8,078 nucleotides of DNA from Anaerolineae bacterium (GTDB taxonomy: Bacteria; Chloroflexota; Anaerolineae; 4572-78; J111). The stretch's first letter is position 1. Each line of letters opens with the position of its first letter. The notes beneath the pieces were generated by a model. That model did not search any database and was not told where the DNA came from. It was given only the letters and a program-made list of their open reading frames with translations. A program made the position numbers and the translations under genes. This document shows positions 3,943 to 8,078 of the stretch, piece by piece. The DNA lies in assembly GCA_020433785.1 (NCBI GenBank), contig JAGRCC010000011.1, positions 1-8,078 on the forward strand. The letters are read 5' to 3'.

Positions 3943-4401
3943 CTAGATCGGCAGGGGACCCACAAACTCGATCCCATACGCCTGGCACGCTTGCCCAATT
4001 ACCGTATCATCGATGACGGCATGGGGTAAAGGCGAGGTAATTGCTCGGTAGAACTCGCCATGTCGGGGTGTTGTGAGAATGAGGTAACGCGCCATGACCG
4101 ACTCAATCCGGAAGCCGTGGATTGTGCCACCGGGAATATGAACAAATGCGCCGGCCCCGGCTCGCCTCCCCGCCTGGCCGTCCAGGTAAAAGGAGATTTC
4201 GCCTGCGAGGACATAGAACGATTCACCATCATCGTGTTTGTGCAGCGGGATGATTTCGCCGCCAATTGCCTGTTCTTCAACCAGAGCGAAAGCCCCGCCC
4301 GTGCGCGTATCTGTCGCCAGAAAGTAGGTGAATGTCTCCCCCATCCAGCGCAACTCACCCTCGCCGGGTTGATATAAGTAAGCGTTAATCATCTCACTCA
4401 T
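3943..4401 (-). CDS. single-domain cupin protein (quercetin dioxygenase-like)
   Basis: A 152-residue protein with one complete cupin domain. Motif 1 is G48-x5-H54-x-H56-x3-E60-x6-G67 and motif 2 is G84-x5-P90-x-G92-x2-H95, so all four usual metal ligands (two His, Glu, His) are present. It should bind a divalent metal and may be a small oxygenase, isomerase or sensor; the substrate is unknown. The start at 4401 is supported by GGAGG five nt upstream; the next Met (residue 4) would be badly spaced. It resembles the cupin at 6747-7238 in overall plan, though not closely in sequence. Downstream is the membrane miniprotein gene; upstream is a MITE-like element that may supply or disturb its promoter. 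No signal peptide is seen. Confidence 0.9.
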   Translation of the reverse strand: MSEMINAYLYQPGEGELRWMGETFTYFLATDTRTGGAFALVEEQAIGGEIIPLHKHDDGESFYVLAGEISFYLDGQAGRRAGAGAFVHIPGGTIHGFRIESVMARYLILTTPRHGEFYRAITSPLPHAVIDDTVIGQACQAYGIEFVGPLPI

Positions 4402-4431: not shown

Positions 4432-4552
4432 TTACGCAGTTCAAAAGGTGACAGTCACTTAGCGGCGATAAATCGACCTGTTTGGACTAAACGAACATTC
4501 ATTTTCAGCAAAAAGTGACTGTCACCTGGGTTCGATACACTCAACTGCGTAA
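4432..4552. repeat. outer inverted repeat enclosing the first MITE-like element
   Basis: TTACGCAGTT (4432-4441) is perfectly matched by AACTGCGTAA (4543-4552). The two arms enclose the 82-bp element at 4446-4527, giving a nested structure of 121 bp. The ends look like those of insertion-sequence or MITE termini, but no transposase remains between them. Confidence 0.6.
4446..4527. mobile_element. MITE-like element, copy 1
   Basis: The terminal inverted repeats are perfect over 15 bp: AGGTGACAGTCACTT (4446-4460) and AAGTGACTGTCACCT (4513-4527). The 52-bp interior has no ORF. Its ends match those of the element at 6175-6254 at 12 of 14 positions, and both interiors are exactly 52 bp, so the two belong to one family of small non-autonomous repeats. 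The arms could also form a strong hairpin in RNA. It lies between two minus-strand genes. No clear target duplication is seen immediately outside. It may be mobilised by a transposase elsewhere in the genome. Confidence 0.65.
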
Positions 4553-4574: not shown

Positions 4575-4859
4575 TCAGTACGCCTTGGCTTCCACCATTT
4601 CTACAATCTGTGATTGAGGGTTCATCATAATCGTCCCCTCGACCCGGCCCCACACCACGCGCATGGCGGCCAGCAAGGCCTCGGCCTGATCGATGGTATC
4701 GAACTCAAGGTCGATCATGACGTAGTTGGGATTGTCGATGGGGCGTAGGATTTGGTAGCGGCGTACGCCTGATTTCTCCCGGCCGACCGGGTCGCTATCG
4801 AAGGCTTGCTTCCAGCCTTCATAGTTCGGGACAGGGTGTTCAATGCGAAGCATGTACAT
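4575..4859 (-). CDS. small dimeric alpha-beta barrel (ABM/cyclase-like) protein
   Basis: A 94-residue protein with the ferredoxin-like pattern of strand, helix, strand seen in dimeric alpha-beta barrel proteins: YMLRIEHPV (2-10), a helix with Y-x2-WKQAFDSDP (13-24), the strand around GVRRYQILRP (31-40), YVMIDLEFD (46-54), a helix ending AMRVVW (65-70), and a last strand near IVEMVEA (85-91). I recall similar small proteins annotated as hypothetical or cyclase-like; the reaction is unknown and no catalytic residue is evident. The reading frame can be extended to a TTG at 4874, but AAGGAG lies inside that extension, 6 nt before the ATG at 4859, so the ATG is chosen. It follows luxR on the same strand after a 133-nt gap containing a large palindrome, so the two are probably separate transcription units. 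Confidence 0.8.
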   Translation of the reverse strand: MYMLRIEHPVPNYEGWKQAFDSDPVGREKSGVRRYQILRPIDNPNYVMIDLEFDTIDQAEALLAAMRVVWGRVEGTIMMNPQSQIVEMVEAKAY

Positions 4860-4880
4860 GGTTAGCTCCTTCAATCCTCT

Positions 4881-4924
4881 AAAAATAGATGCTGTAGGAC
4901 AAACTTAAGTTTGTCCTACAGCAT
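4881..4924 (-). terminator. perfect 36-bp palindrome, possible terminator of luxR
   Basis: Positions 4889-4906 and 4907-4924 are exact reverse complements with no spacer (TGTAGGACAAACTT ... its complement). Read on the minus strand the hairpin is followed three nt later by TTTTT (4885-4881), so it could stop transcription coming from luxR. The perfect, loop-less symmetry also fits two fused insertion-element ends or a binding site. Confidence 0.55.
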
Positions 4925-6174: not shown

Positions 6175-6254
6175 GGTGACTGGCACTTAATCGCACTAAT
6201 AACAGCGTTGTATTCCACTCAATGGTCTCGATTTGAGCCAAAGTGCCAGTCACC
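6175..6254. mobile_element. MITE-like element, copy 2
   Basis: Perfect 14-bp terminal inverted repeats, GGTGACTGGCACTT (6175-6188) and AAGTGCCAGTCACC (6241-6254), enclose 52 bp without a gene. It is related to the element at 4446-4527 by its ends (12 of 14) and by interior length. Read in reverse the interior shares AAATCGA and TGGA-x-TA blocks with copy 1, suggesting old divergence. It lies between the luxR promoter and the luxR start, so its arms would form a hairpin in the luxR leader RNA. Confidence 0.65.
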
Positions 6255-6264
6255 GGAGTAGTTA

Positions 6265-6273
6265 CCATGCGTC
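6265..6273. repeat. 9-bp direct repeat, promoter-side copy
   Basis: CCATGCGTC repeats the bases over the luxR start codon at 6144-6152. On the minus strand its ATG (6268) lies just 6 nt after a perfect TATAAT box. Confidence 0.5.
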
Positions 6274-6274
6274 T

Positions 6275-6303
6275 ATTATACATCCGCCAATTGCTGCTTA
6301 CAA
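6275..6303 (-). promoter_or_regulatory. probable luxR promoter
   Basis: On the minus strand TTGTAA (6303-6298) is followed after 17 nt by a perfect TATAAT (6280-6275). Transcription would start near 6268 and run through the MITE-like element before reaching luxR at 6147, giving a leader of about 120 nt. It is back-to-back with the SnoaL-operon promoter; their -35 regions are about 17 bp apart. Confidence 0.65.
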
Positions 6304-6328
6304 TACCACTTTTCTGGTATAGAAAAGT
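6303..6328. promoter_or_regulatory. overlapping inverted repeats, operator candidate between luxR and the SnoaL operon
   Basis: Two perfect dyads overlap. ATACCA-CTTTTC-TGGTAT spans 6303-6320, and ACTTTTC-TGGTATA-GAAAAGT spans 6308-6328. They share bases, so only one can form a given structure at a time. They sit between the two divergent promoters and cover the -35 region of the SnoaL operon. The LuxR regulator is the obvious candidate to bind here. Confidence 0.5.
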
Positions 6329-6348
6329 CTCCCGGCGGCCTATATACT
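6320..6348 (+). promoter_or_regulatory. promoter of the SnoaL-cupin operon
   Basis: TATACT (6343-6348) is a five-of-six -10 box; 17 nt upstream is TAGAAA (6320-6325), a four-of-six -35 box inside the inverted repeats. A weak -35 under an operator suggests a regulated, possibly activated promoter. The start would be near 6355. Confidence 0.55.
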
Positions 6349-6355
6349 TGAGGCT

Positions 6356-6391
6356 ATGAACGACTTCAGACAAGGAAGGGCGGGGCGATGA
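6356..6391 (+). CDS. possible 11-residue leader peptide
   Basis: An ATG lies 7 nt after the -10 box, so a transcript from this promoter would begin at or beside it. It encodes MNDFRQGRAGR and stops at TGA 6389-6391, overlapping the start of the SnoaL-like gene as ATGA. The SnoaL and cupin genes overlap in the same way. It may be a leaderless peptide that couples translation, or chance. Confidence 0.25.
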   Translation: MNDFRQGRAGR

Positions 6392-6750
6392 TGACCGGGG
6401 CGCGAACACCGGAGGAACTTGAGACGCTGTTGGAGGACACCCTGATGCTCCGCGACCAGCAAGCGCTGGCCGAGTTGTTTGAGGATGGCGCCCTGCTGGT
6501 TGTGAACGATGAACAATCAGCTCGTGGGGGTGAGGCGATAGCCCGGTTGGCCCTGGTGACGTGGGCCGGTGAACACAGCTACGTGGCCAATCCGCAGTAT
6601 GTCATGCAAGCCCGCGACATTGCGCTGATCGTTTCCGAGCGGTGCATCACTGTGGTGCGCCGTGACAATAGGGGAACCTGGCGGTACGCGATTGTCCGCC
6701 AGTTGGTTGATGATGGCTTGATCATAAATTTCGAAGGGAGACTAAAATGA
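6388..6750 (+). CDS. SnoaL-like / NTF2-fold small protein
   Basis: A 120-residue protein whose pattern fits the SnoaL/ketosteroid-isomerase-like NTF2 fold. It has an N-terminal helix TPEELETLLEDTLMLRDQQA (7-26), then LAELFEDGALLVV (28-39), a Gly-containing turn with a second helix GGEAIARLALVTW (47-59), and alternating strands such as DIALIVSERCITVVRR (77-92) and GTWRYAIVRQLV (96-107). Members are often small enzymes or stress-type proteins acting on hydrophobic compounds; no specific reaction can be assigned. Two ATG codons are adjacent (6388 and 6391); the purine-rich AAGGAAGGG and GGGG lie upstream. Its stop overlaps the next gene's start (ATGA), indicating tight translational coupling. 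It is the first gene of an operon divergent from luxR. Confidence 0.85.
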   Translation: MMTGARTPEELETLLEDTLMLRDQQALAELFEDGALLVVNDEQSARGGEAIARLALVTWAGEHSYVANPQYVMQARDIALIVSERCITVVRRDNRGTWRYAIVRQLVDDGLIINFEGRLK

Positions 6751-7238
6751 CACAGAACAATGTTCAAACTCAGATGTTGAAGCCGGTGGCCGTGGCCAAA
6801 GACGAGGGACAGGCGCGCTGGTGGTTTGACAGCCTGGCCGTGATCAAGGCCACGGCCGCCGACACCGGGGGGCAGATGACCCTTATCGAGATCACGGAGC
6901 CGCCTGGGGCCGAAGCCCCGCTCCATGTGCATCACCGGGAGGACGAGGGCTTTTGGTTGCTCGAAGGGGACGTCACCTTTGAGGTCGGCCAGGCCACCAT
7001 TGAGGCCCACGCCGGGGATTACGTTTTTGGCCCGCGTGACATCCCCCACCGCTATACGGTCGGCAGCGCCGGCTGCCGGATGCTGTTCATCATGACCCCC
7101 GGCGGGTTCGAGGATCTGGTCATCGCTATGAGCAAACCGGCCGCCAGCCGCACCTTGCCCCCACCGTCCGATGAGGAGCCGAACTGGGAGCAAGTGGCGG
7201 CCATCGCTAAAGCGCACGGGAACGAATTGCTCGGGTAA
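6747..7238 (+). CDS. cupin protein, quercetin dioxygenase-like
   Basis: A 163-residue protein with one cupin domain at about residues 45-118. Motif 1 fits the classic spacing exactly: G54-x5-H60-x-H62-x4-E67-x6-G74. Motif 2 is G90-x5-P96 with the last ligand at H101 (PRDIPHRY). Thus a metal site of three His and one Glu is intact. The C-terminal 40 residues are helical and Pro-rich (SRTLPPPSDEEP then a helix), as in many quercetin 2,3-dioxygenase-like cupins of unknown substrate. AGGGAG lies 7 nt before the ATG, and the start overlaps the stop of the SnoaL-like gene by ATGA. The pair probably work on the same compound under LuxR control. The gene is followed by a stem-loop and then the 22-bp repeat array. 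Confidence 0.92.
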   Translation: MTQNNVQTQMLKPVAVAKDEGQARWWFDSLAVIKATAADTGGQMTLIEITEPPGAEAPLHVHHREDEGFWLLEGDVTFEVGQATIEAHAGDYVFGPRDIPHRYTVGSAGCRMLFIMTPGGFEDLVIAMSKPAASRTLPPPSDEEPNWEQVAAIAKAHGNELLG

Positions 7239-7280
7239 CGCCCCTGCTACCCGTAAATAGGCTTAGCGTTCGGCGTTGAA

Positions 7281-7334
7281 CACCCGGGTGACACAACCTG
7301 ACCAGGCTAGGGTTCAGACGTGGTCACCTGGGTG
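7281..7334. repeat. stem-loop at the front of the 22-bp array
   Basis: CACCCGGGTGAC (7281-7292) can pair with GTCACCTGGGTG (7323-7334): 11 of 12 pairs plus one G-T. The 30-nt loop has further small dyads (CCTG-AC-CAGG). The right arm is already part of the first repeat unit, and the left arm is 44 bp (two units) before it, in phase. It lies 42 nt past the cupin stop; without a T-run it is not a typical terminator. Confidence 0.5.
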
Positions 7335-7676
7335 TAAAAAAGTTTAGACCTAGGTGTGTGGAAGCCTAGACCGGGGTGTGCGGAAGCCTAGACCCGGGTC
7401 TAAAAAAGTTTAGACCTAGGTGTGTGGAAGCCTAGACCCGGGTGTGCGGAAGTCCAGACCCAGGTGTACGAAAGCCTAGACCCAGGTGTCCGAAAGCCTA
7501 GACCGGGGTGCGCGGAAGCCTAGACCCAGGTGTCCGAAAGCCTAGACCGGGGTGTGTAAGAGTTTAGACCTAGGTGTGCAAAAGTCTAGACCCGGGTGTG
7601 AAAAAGTTTAAACCCAGGTCTAAAAAAGCCTAGACCCGGGTCTTTTTTTGTAAAGACCGGGGTGTTTGTAAAGGGA
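7325..7676. repeat. tandem array of sixteen 22-bp units
   Basis: Sixteen consecutive units of exactly 22 bp start at 7325, 7347, 7369 and so on to 7655, with no insertion or deletion. The consensus is roughly GACCCGGGTGTGCGGAAGCCTA. The best conserved part is the dyad ACC-NN-GGT; the middle dinucleotide is CG, TA, CA, GG or TG. Differences between units are mostly C/T and G/A changes. Units at 7347 and 7413 are identical, as are those at 7479 and 7523, and the first three units closely match the next three, so the array grew by 66-bp and 44-bp duplications. Frequent TAG triplets and a period not divisible by three rule out coding. There are no unique spacers, so it is not CRISPR. It resembles an iteron-like or other multi-site protein-binding array, or a structured non-coding RNA; neither is proven. 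Confidence 0.9.
7617..7658 (+). terminator. terminator-like structures at the end of the array
   Basis: GGTCTA (7617-7622) pairs with TAGACC (7631-7636), and the self-complementary AGACCCGGGTCT (7632-7643) runs into seven T residues (7643-7649). GGTCTTT (7639-7645) can instead pair with AAAGACC (7652-7658). These alternatives could end transcription from the cupin operon, about 400 nt past its stop. Confidence 0.35.
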
Positions 7677-7683
7677 GACCTTA

Positions 7684-7815
7684 ATGACTCAAGGCCCTTA
7701 TCTAGCTACCTCACGTTTGCCAACAACCATGACGTTCACCCCACTCCGAGAGTTTGTGGCGTTGGATGGATGGCTGGATGGGCAGTGGGGCTACCGTAGT
7801 GGGAAGTTGTTCTGA
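7684..7815 (+). CDS. doubtful 43-residue ORF after the array
   Basis: An ATG at 7684 opens 43 codons ending in TGA at 7813-7815. AAAGGGAG lies about 6 nt upstream and is formed by the last repeat unit. The product begins MTQGPYLATSRLPTTMTF and ends in a Trp/Gly-rich stretch (DGWLDGQWGY). The start region resembles that of the upstream cupin gene (AGGGAGAC before ATGAC-CA). I recognise no family; no hydrophobic segment is present. The good ribosome site is the only real support. Confidence 0.25.
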   Translation: MTQGPYLATSRLPTTMTFTPLREFVALDGWLDGQWGYRSGKLF

Positions 7816-7916
7816 GGGGAGTAAGTAAAGAAGATGGATAAAAAAGAGGCTGCGCTAGTCTATTCGTACATAGTACACTGTAGAAATTGTTTGAAATCAA
7901 TTAGAGGGGTGGGGGT

Positions 7917-7991
7917 AGTTAGTTTGTTGGCCGGTTGGATGGTTGGTTTGGACGTTACCAACCAACCATCCATCCAACAAACAAACCAACT
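7917..7991. repeat. long GGTT/AACC-rich imperfect hairpin
   Basis: Arms 7917-7947 and 7961-7991 pair at 25 of 31 positions around a 13-nt loop, including an unbroken 12-bp inner stem (TGGATGGTTGGT with its complement). The left arm has seven GG pairs in about 25 nt, enough for a two-layer G-quadruplex. It lies 7 nt beyond the stop of the minus-strand gene at the right edge and may protect or terminate that mRNA, though no T-run is present. The rest of 7816-7916 shows no feature I can support. Confidence 0.6.
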
Positions 7992-7998
7992 CATCAGC

Positions 7999-8078
7999 TT
8001 ACTCAACGGTCAAGGTTTGATTCAATATCCCGCTGCGCAGGTCTTCTTTGCCGAAGACGGCGCGGACTTCGATGCGGT
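7999..8078 (-). CDS. C-terminal end of an unidentified protein, cut by the right edge
   Basis: On the minus strand the frame entering from the right edge gives 25 residues, RIEVRAVFGKEDLRSGILNQ followed by TLTVE, then TAA at 8001-7999. Third positions are G or C in 18 of 25 codons, like the clear genes in this window, and the alternation of charged and hydrophobic residues suggests beta strands. This could be the end of a secreted beta-sandwich or a cytosolic domain; too little is visible to name it. A plus-strand frame also runs through this stretch but would have to read through the hairpin at 7917-7991, so the minus strand is preferred. Confidence 0.6.
   Translation of the reverse strand, partial: RIEVRAVFGKEDLRSGILNQTLTVE

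Follow-up and report, generated by a model that had tools for sequence, protein, structure and literature searches.

A tandem array of palindromic 22-bp units downstream of a cupin gene in an Anaerolineae bacterium, read as a probable intergenic minisatellite

What kind of element is a run of sixteen 22-bp repeats in which a dyad is conserved and the spacing never slips? The array lies near one end of the 8,078-nt stretch of an Anaerolineae contig that was analyzed here (the window). A preliminary description had reported perfect phase across sixteen repeats, with ACC and GGT conserved around a changing dyad centre, and had interpreted the array as a dimer-binding or iteron-like site. The structural part of that account was borne out by TRF and by in-register alignment: positions 7325-7676 hold 16 tandem units, each exactly 22 bp long, with no indel. 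The array and a possible outlying unit are as follows.

7325..7676, + strand: tandem array of 16 units x 22 bp, consensus GACC-NN-GGTGT-NNNN-AAG-NNTA (TRF, register and motif count)
7281..7290, + strand: CACCCGGGTG, a possible decayed unit, in register and exactly 44 bp upstream of unit 1

TRF assigns a period of 22 with 0% indels and 76% matches (7345-7641), and also reports a 66-bp higher-order period (7326-7641, 79% matches). When the units are aligned, ACC (columns 2-4), GGT (columns 7-9) and an A at column 22 are each found in 16/16 units, and variation is found in columns 5-6, the dyad centre, and in columns 12-15 and 19-20. G stands at column 1 in 14 of the 16 units and T at column 11 in 15, and the AAG of columns 16-18 is kept in 14, 15 and 15 units, respectively; with the linker letters AAG and TA almost invariant as well, the conserved portion is larger than the dyad alone. 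The motif AGACCNNGGT matches 17 times (14 on the + strand, 3 on the - strand), always within the array, where shuffles lead one to expect 0.28, and there are no further copies in the 8,078-nt window. For ACCNNGGT, 16 of 18 matches in the window fall within the array (2.17 expected from shuffles). In the predicted + strand fold, CACCCGGGTG at 7281..7290 pairs with the start of the array.

The genes in the window are of ordinary chromosomal type, metabolic and regulatory: they encode DUF2585, DMSP-lyase-like, GNAT acetyltransferase, AraC-type regulator, short-chain dehydrogenase, two Cupin_2 and LuxR-type regulator proteins, and two of the ten proteins scanned have no Pfam match. No replication protein was found among these ten. 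Organism names accompany four of the 120 relatives listed for the LuxR protein (Anaerolineae, Chloroflexota, Trueperaceae and Thermomicrobiales) and two of the 120 listed for the cupin (both Chloroflexota), which makes membership of the Chloroflexota probable; no cupin relatives were confirmed in viral contigs. A coding array was ruled out, as no ORF of at least 60 aa overlaps it. Its immediate surroundings contain the following features.

6747..7238, + strand: gene for a Cupin_2 protein, with 86 bases from its stop (7238) to the array (ORF and Pfam)
7999..8078, - strand: probable 3' end of a gene, 25 codons plus TAA (7999-8001), cut by the window end (coding score)
7917..7991, - strand: long hairpin just past the probable - strand stop codon, -47.1 kcal/mol and z -7.4 for 7910-7997 (fold)

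The 25-codon - strand reading has a codon score of 0.351, to be compared with a 5th percentile of 0.057 for the genes of the window and with 95% of wrong frames below 0.170; its mirror + frame scores 0.26, and the whole + ORF at 7834-8076 scores -0.031. By its codon usage, a convergent - strand gene after the array is thus probable, and the array lies downstream of the cupin gene on the + strand and probably also downstream of a gene on the - strand, which is not a promoter position. The hairpin at 7917-7991 is built of GGTT/GGAT-like four-base repeats. Elsewhere in the window, two elements of exactly 80 bp (4447-4526 and 6175-6254; 0 expected in 200 shuffles) share their inverted ends (GGTGACNGNCACTT ... 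AAGTGNCNGTCACC) but differ inside; one sits between the genes at 3943-4401 and 4575-4874, the other between the start of the LuxR gene (6147) and a gene at 6388. In this they are reminiscent of paired REP elements (REPINs). The intergenic positions 4889-4924 form a perfect, loopless 18+18 palindrome.

How the array came about can be read in part from the similarity of its units. The 66-bp and 44-bp higher-order copies that had been described earlier are present, with 38 and 39 identical bases at those offsets.

7335..7438, + strand: higher-order duplication, 38 identical bases 66 bp apart (7335-7372 / 7401-7438; units 1-3 versus units 4-6), second copy placed by adding the offset
7472..7554, + strand: higher-order duplication, 39 identical bases 44 bp apart (7472-7510 / 7516-7554), second copy placed by adding the offset

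Units 2 and 5 are identical, as are units 8 and 10, and the most diverged units are 15 and 16 at the 3' end, with 7-12 differences from the other units. Considering that the linker letters AAG and TA are common to the units and that blocks of 38-39 bp are identical, the array grew by duplication. Identical units, block copies and diverged units at the 3' end broadly form the pattern that slippage or unequal exchange leaves, and with head-to-tail copies, a unit within about 10-100 bp and these signs of duplication the locus has two of the attributes by which minisatellites (VNTRs) are recognized. Unit 1 is not diverged, so that the expected end decay is found at one end only, which counts against a minisatellite.

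Two further observations speak against a minisatellite, namely the absence of indels over 16 diverged units despite runs of A and T in the linkers, and the seven invariant columns (of 22), which are in excess by one of two counts. With 41 parsimony steps on a neighbour-joining (NJ) tree and changes falling evenly, 3.3 invariant columns are expected (P 0.012), whereas with a minimum of 28 changes 5.6 are expected (P 0.26). Any excess conservation therefore depends on how changes are counted, and because exchange between units may inflate the parsimony step count, the alignment would offer weak evidence of selection on ACC/GGT. For the spacing, we compared the diverged tandem repeats of 102 loci and the window, taking rows with a period of 12-70, three or more copies and a match of no more than 85%. 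Of the 92 rows, 56 contain indels; 32 lack them and have periods that are multiples of three, as coding repeats do, and 4 lack them at other periods. These last are the window array, which has the most copies, and the loci L013, L036 and L061. Zero indels across 16 units is thus somewhat unusual, although the comparison is a hint at most, because the loci were chosen by motif and the rows overlap.

Owing to the periodicity, ACC and GGT bound not one palindrome but two, ACC-NN-GGT and GGT-linker-ACC, the centres of which are 11 bp apart in the consensus. We compared the two for pairing and compensating changes, using 15 units as rows (13 distinct). The linker palindrome has 77.9% of its cells paired (shuffles 71.6 +- 1.6) and a covariation of 0.202 (shuffles 0.107 +- 0.026), and neither value was reached by any of 500 shuffles; with the partner slid, at most 51.3% of cells pair, with a covariation of 0.183. 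The corresponding values for ACC-NN-GGT are 72.1% paired (shuffles 70.5 +- 1.4), reached by 106 of 500 shuffles, and a covariation of 0.127, reached by 78. Pairs changed on both sides number 3 in each palindrome, a count reached by 8/500 shuffles for the linker palindrome and 9/500 for ACC-NN-GGT. When the 3' linker halves were permuted among the 15 units, the three linker pairs scored 26.0 against 17.8 +- 2.1 (P 0.0002), and four versions of a tree-aware simulation, in which columns evolve independently on the unit tree, gave P values of 0.017, 0.011, 0.018 and 0.04. Compensating changes would thus favour the linker palindrome over ACC-NN-GGT, modestly so, because the tree-aware P values lie at 0.01-0.04. 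Neither palindrome is regular: the ACC-NN-GGT dyad fails at the fourth pair in 13 of 15 units, the pair next to ACC/GGT being symmetric in 2/15, and the stem of the linker hairpin fails at pair 4 in 10 of the 13 distinct rows and at pair 7 in 9. At least 7 of 9 Watson-Crick pairs are formed at only three centres within 7300-7700 (7395.5, 7406.5 and 7615.5), which leaves the majority of units imperfect for either palindrome. In tandem repeats, therefore, a "conserved dyad" is ambiguous, since each unit contains two palindromes, and compensating changes can help to discriminate between them.

The pairing potential of the array is also apparent from its folding. The region 7240-7700 folds with z-scores of -5.1 and -5.0 on the two strands, better than all 100 shuffles, as predicted folds of self-complementary repeats tend to do. 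Four units were folded singly: unit 4 forms a perfect 8-bp hairpin (-7.8 kcal/mol), unit 1 reaches -4.0 kcal/mol (z -3.5), and the remaining two reach -3.4 and -2.4 kcal/mol, values that 46 and 44, respectively, of 200 shuffles attain. On each strand, units 14-15 provide a terminator-like site.

7612..7649, + strand: terminator-like hairpin of units 14-15 (stem 7612-7641) followed by a seven-T run, -14.8 kcal/mol for 7605-7655 (terminator scan and fold)
7601..7643, - strand: terminator-like hairpin of units 14-15 (stem 7643-7610) followed by a five-T run (7605-7601), -21.7 kcal/mol for 7600-7650 (terminator scan and fold)

Considering that these 2 sites in 6200-8078 are not above the shuffled mean of 1.9, it is their position rather than their number that is suggestive of a role at transcript ends, and in the predicted structures the last repeats may help to end transcription. 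No known RNA family was found over the window at gathering score. At a relaxed threshold, 7200-8078 gave 13 weak rows, comprising 12 microRNA models (11 in the hairpin region at 7917-7991 and one at 7639-7680) and one IMES-2; every score was below gathering, and the rows were taken as chance.

To see where similar arrays occur, we used a strict two-unit pattern, TAGACCNNGGTNTNNNNAAGNNTAGACCNNGGT, which has seven matches in the window and which fixes part of the linker, so that arrays with other linkers are missed. Across a one-genome-per-species collection, where about 0.03 chance matches of its 22 fixed bases are expected by arithmetic estimate, it gave a single match, in a rumen Bacteroidetes MAG. 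Because it matched no Chloroflexota record of that collection, the comparison suggests that the spread of the unit is narrow, presuming that the collection includes relatives of the lineage. The rumen locus (L057, about 152-238; also L067, about 1455-1540) has about four 22-bp units around AGACC-NN-GGTG, the first core being imperfect, and the gene that follows reads as HU-like. Among its relatives, in sets of 149 family members and 296 phylum members that each include the matching genome, related two-unit patterns were found in none of the other 443 (148 and 295); a backward control pattern matched once in the 296 phylum members (G356). A similar 22-bp array in one rumen Bacteroidetes genome speaks against a purely local origin; we tentatively read it as convergence between simple repeats.

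An origin of the array from a plasmid or phage was rejected, as a search at blastn sensitivity, with low-complexity filtering, of 72,556 plasmid and 50,697 phage records gave no match to 7240-7700. Viral contigs contained 0 matches to a one-unit pattern with its linker, 56 loci with a loose three-core pattern, and 11 and 37 loci with two two-unit patterns (a control pattern gave 4 loci against the 11); judged by eye, these are mostly short-period or coding-like repeats. Four of the 11 loci (L058, L059, L063 and L066) are one sequence, and three others (L060, L064 and L065) are nearly one. In the set of loci examined for period, values range from 15 to 30 and 22 does not stand out, with 4 of 48 matches (two each in L020 and L067, the latter not viral). 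Locus L052 has AGACCTTGGTGT units at 22 bp, with a linker that differs from that of the window array. A further viral contig, L061, has four ACACC/AGACC-CG-GGTGT dyads at 1445-1525, spaced by 23 bp with unrelated linkers and overlapped by no ORF of at least 60 aa; from its sequence it looks like what is expected of a binding or operator array, unlike the window array. Our literature searches joining Chloroflexi/Anaerolineae with tandem repeats and intergenic terms found none, and nothing on this 22-bp unit appeared in the titles and abstract openings returned.

Taken together, we consider it fairly probable that the array is an intergenic minisatellite with a palindromic unit, located at the 3' boundary of a gene and perhaps of use at transcript ends. 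This reading follows from the homologous linkers, the duplicated blocks and the most diverged units at the 3' end; from the location between the cupin gene, whose stop lies 86 bases away, and the probable end of the - strand gene; from the absence of an ORF of at least 60 aa, the fold that surpasses shuffles and the terminator-like sites at units 14-15; and from the rarity of the unit elsewhere. The starting point would be a partly self-complementary 22-bp unit (GGTnTnnn-nnnn-nnnTAGACC), which slippage or unequal exchange would have multiplied between the cupin gene and its probably convergent neighbour, in part through block copies of 66 and 44 bp. The array would then be mostly tolerated without selection, and its sole likely use would be at transcript ends, given the terminator-like hairpin and T run of units 14-15 on either strand. 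As a minisatellite, the array would have little importance beyond that of a possible strain marker.

The binding array of the preliminary description would have a dimer on each ACC-NN-GGT along one helix face, with a nucleoid, partition or regulatory function. It draws on ACC and GGT in 16/16 units around a free centre, on indel-free spacing of about two helical turns, and on L061, a candidate site itself, in which spaced arrays with a similar core exist. We nevertheless consider it unlikely: the conservation excess depends on the count, the dyad is broken at its fourth pair, and its paired cells and covariation are matched by many shuffles, the both-side-changed pairs being the one exception to the other measures, with covariation giving more backing to the linker palindrome. 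Furthermore, the array does not precede its + strand neighbour, a protein partner was not found, and where an operator array would have free linkers, AAG and TA are nearly constant, conserved by descent as they may be. Plasmid- or phage-type iterons resemble the array in unit length and tandem register; with metabolic and regulatory genes around it, no replication gene among the ten proteins scanned and no match in the plasmid or phage records, we regard this origin as extremely improbable.

RNA hairpins that span the linker (GGT...ACC), selected because they protect or end the transcript of the cupin gene, would account for the pairing and covariation of the linker palindrome, for the permutation and tree-aware results, and for the folds of units 4 and 1. 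Against them stand the recurrent failures at stem pairs 4 and 7, the two folded units that do no better than many shuffles, and a covariation that comes from few events, mainly two unit types, so that we hold this possibility to be quite doubtful. It is also conceivable, if rather far-fetched, that the array is a two-sided gene-boundary element, in which palindrome centres alternating every 11 bp would provide protein sites on one DNA face and, in RNA transcribed from either side, hairpins that terminate transcription; on this view a comparable design would have arisen separately in the rumen Bacteroidetes. Were the binding or the gene-boundary reading true, the locus would represent an element under spacing constraint, in a lineage that has been little studied.

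As a minisatellite, the array can be set beside known systems. Bacterial minisatellites and VNTR loci have head-to-tail units, block duplications and an intergenic position, all of which apply here; unlike them, the window array has a partly self-complementary unit, 0 indels in 16 units and substitutions concentrated in three blocks. Iteron and operator arrays have a spacing of about 22 bp and a repeated dyad core, which the window array shares, whereas it has no replication gene among the scanned proteins, is not upstream of the cupin gene, and has linkers conserved through duplication. Repetitive extragenic palindromes (REPs) have been hypothesised, in the abstract of PMC3733652, to act in transcription termination and mRNA stabilization, and three Chloroflexota genomes are rows of a table in PMC12306157. 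The window array differs from such palindromes (PMC12306157, PMC3733652) in its tandem 22-bp register and in having no AGACCNNGGT outside the array within the window, and it is like them in being both extragenic and palindromic.
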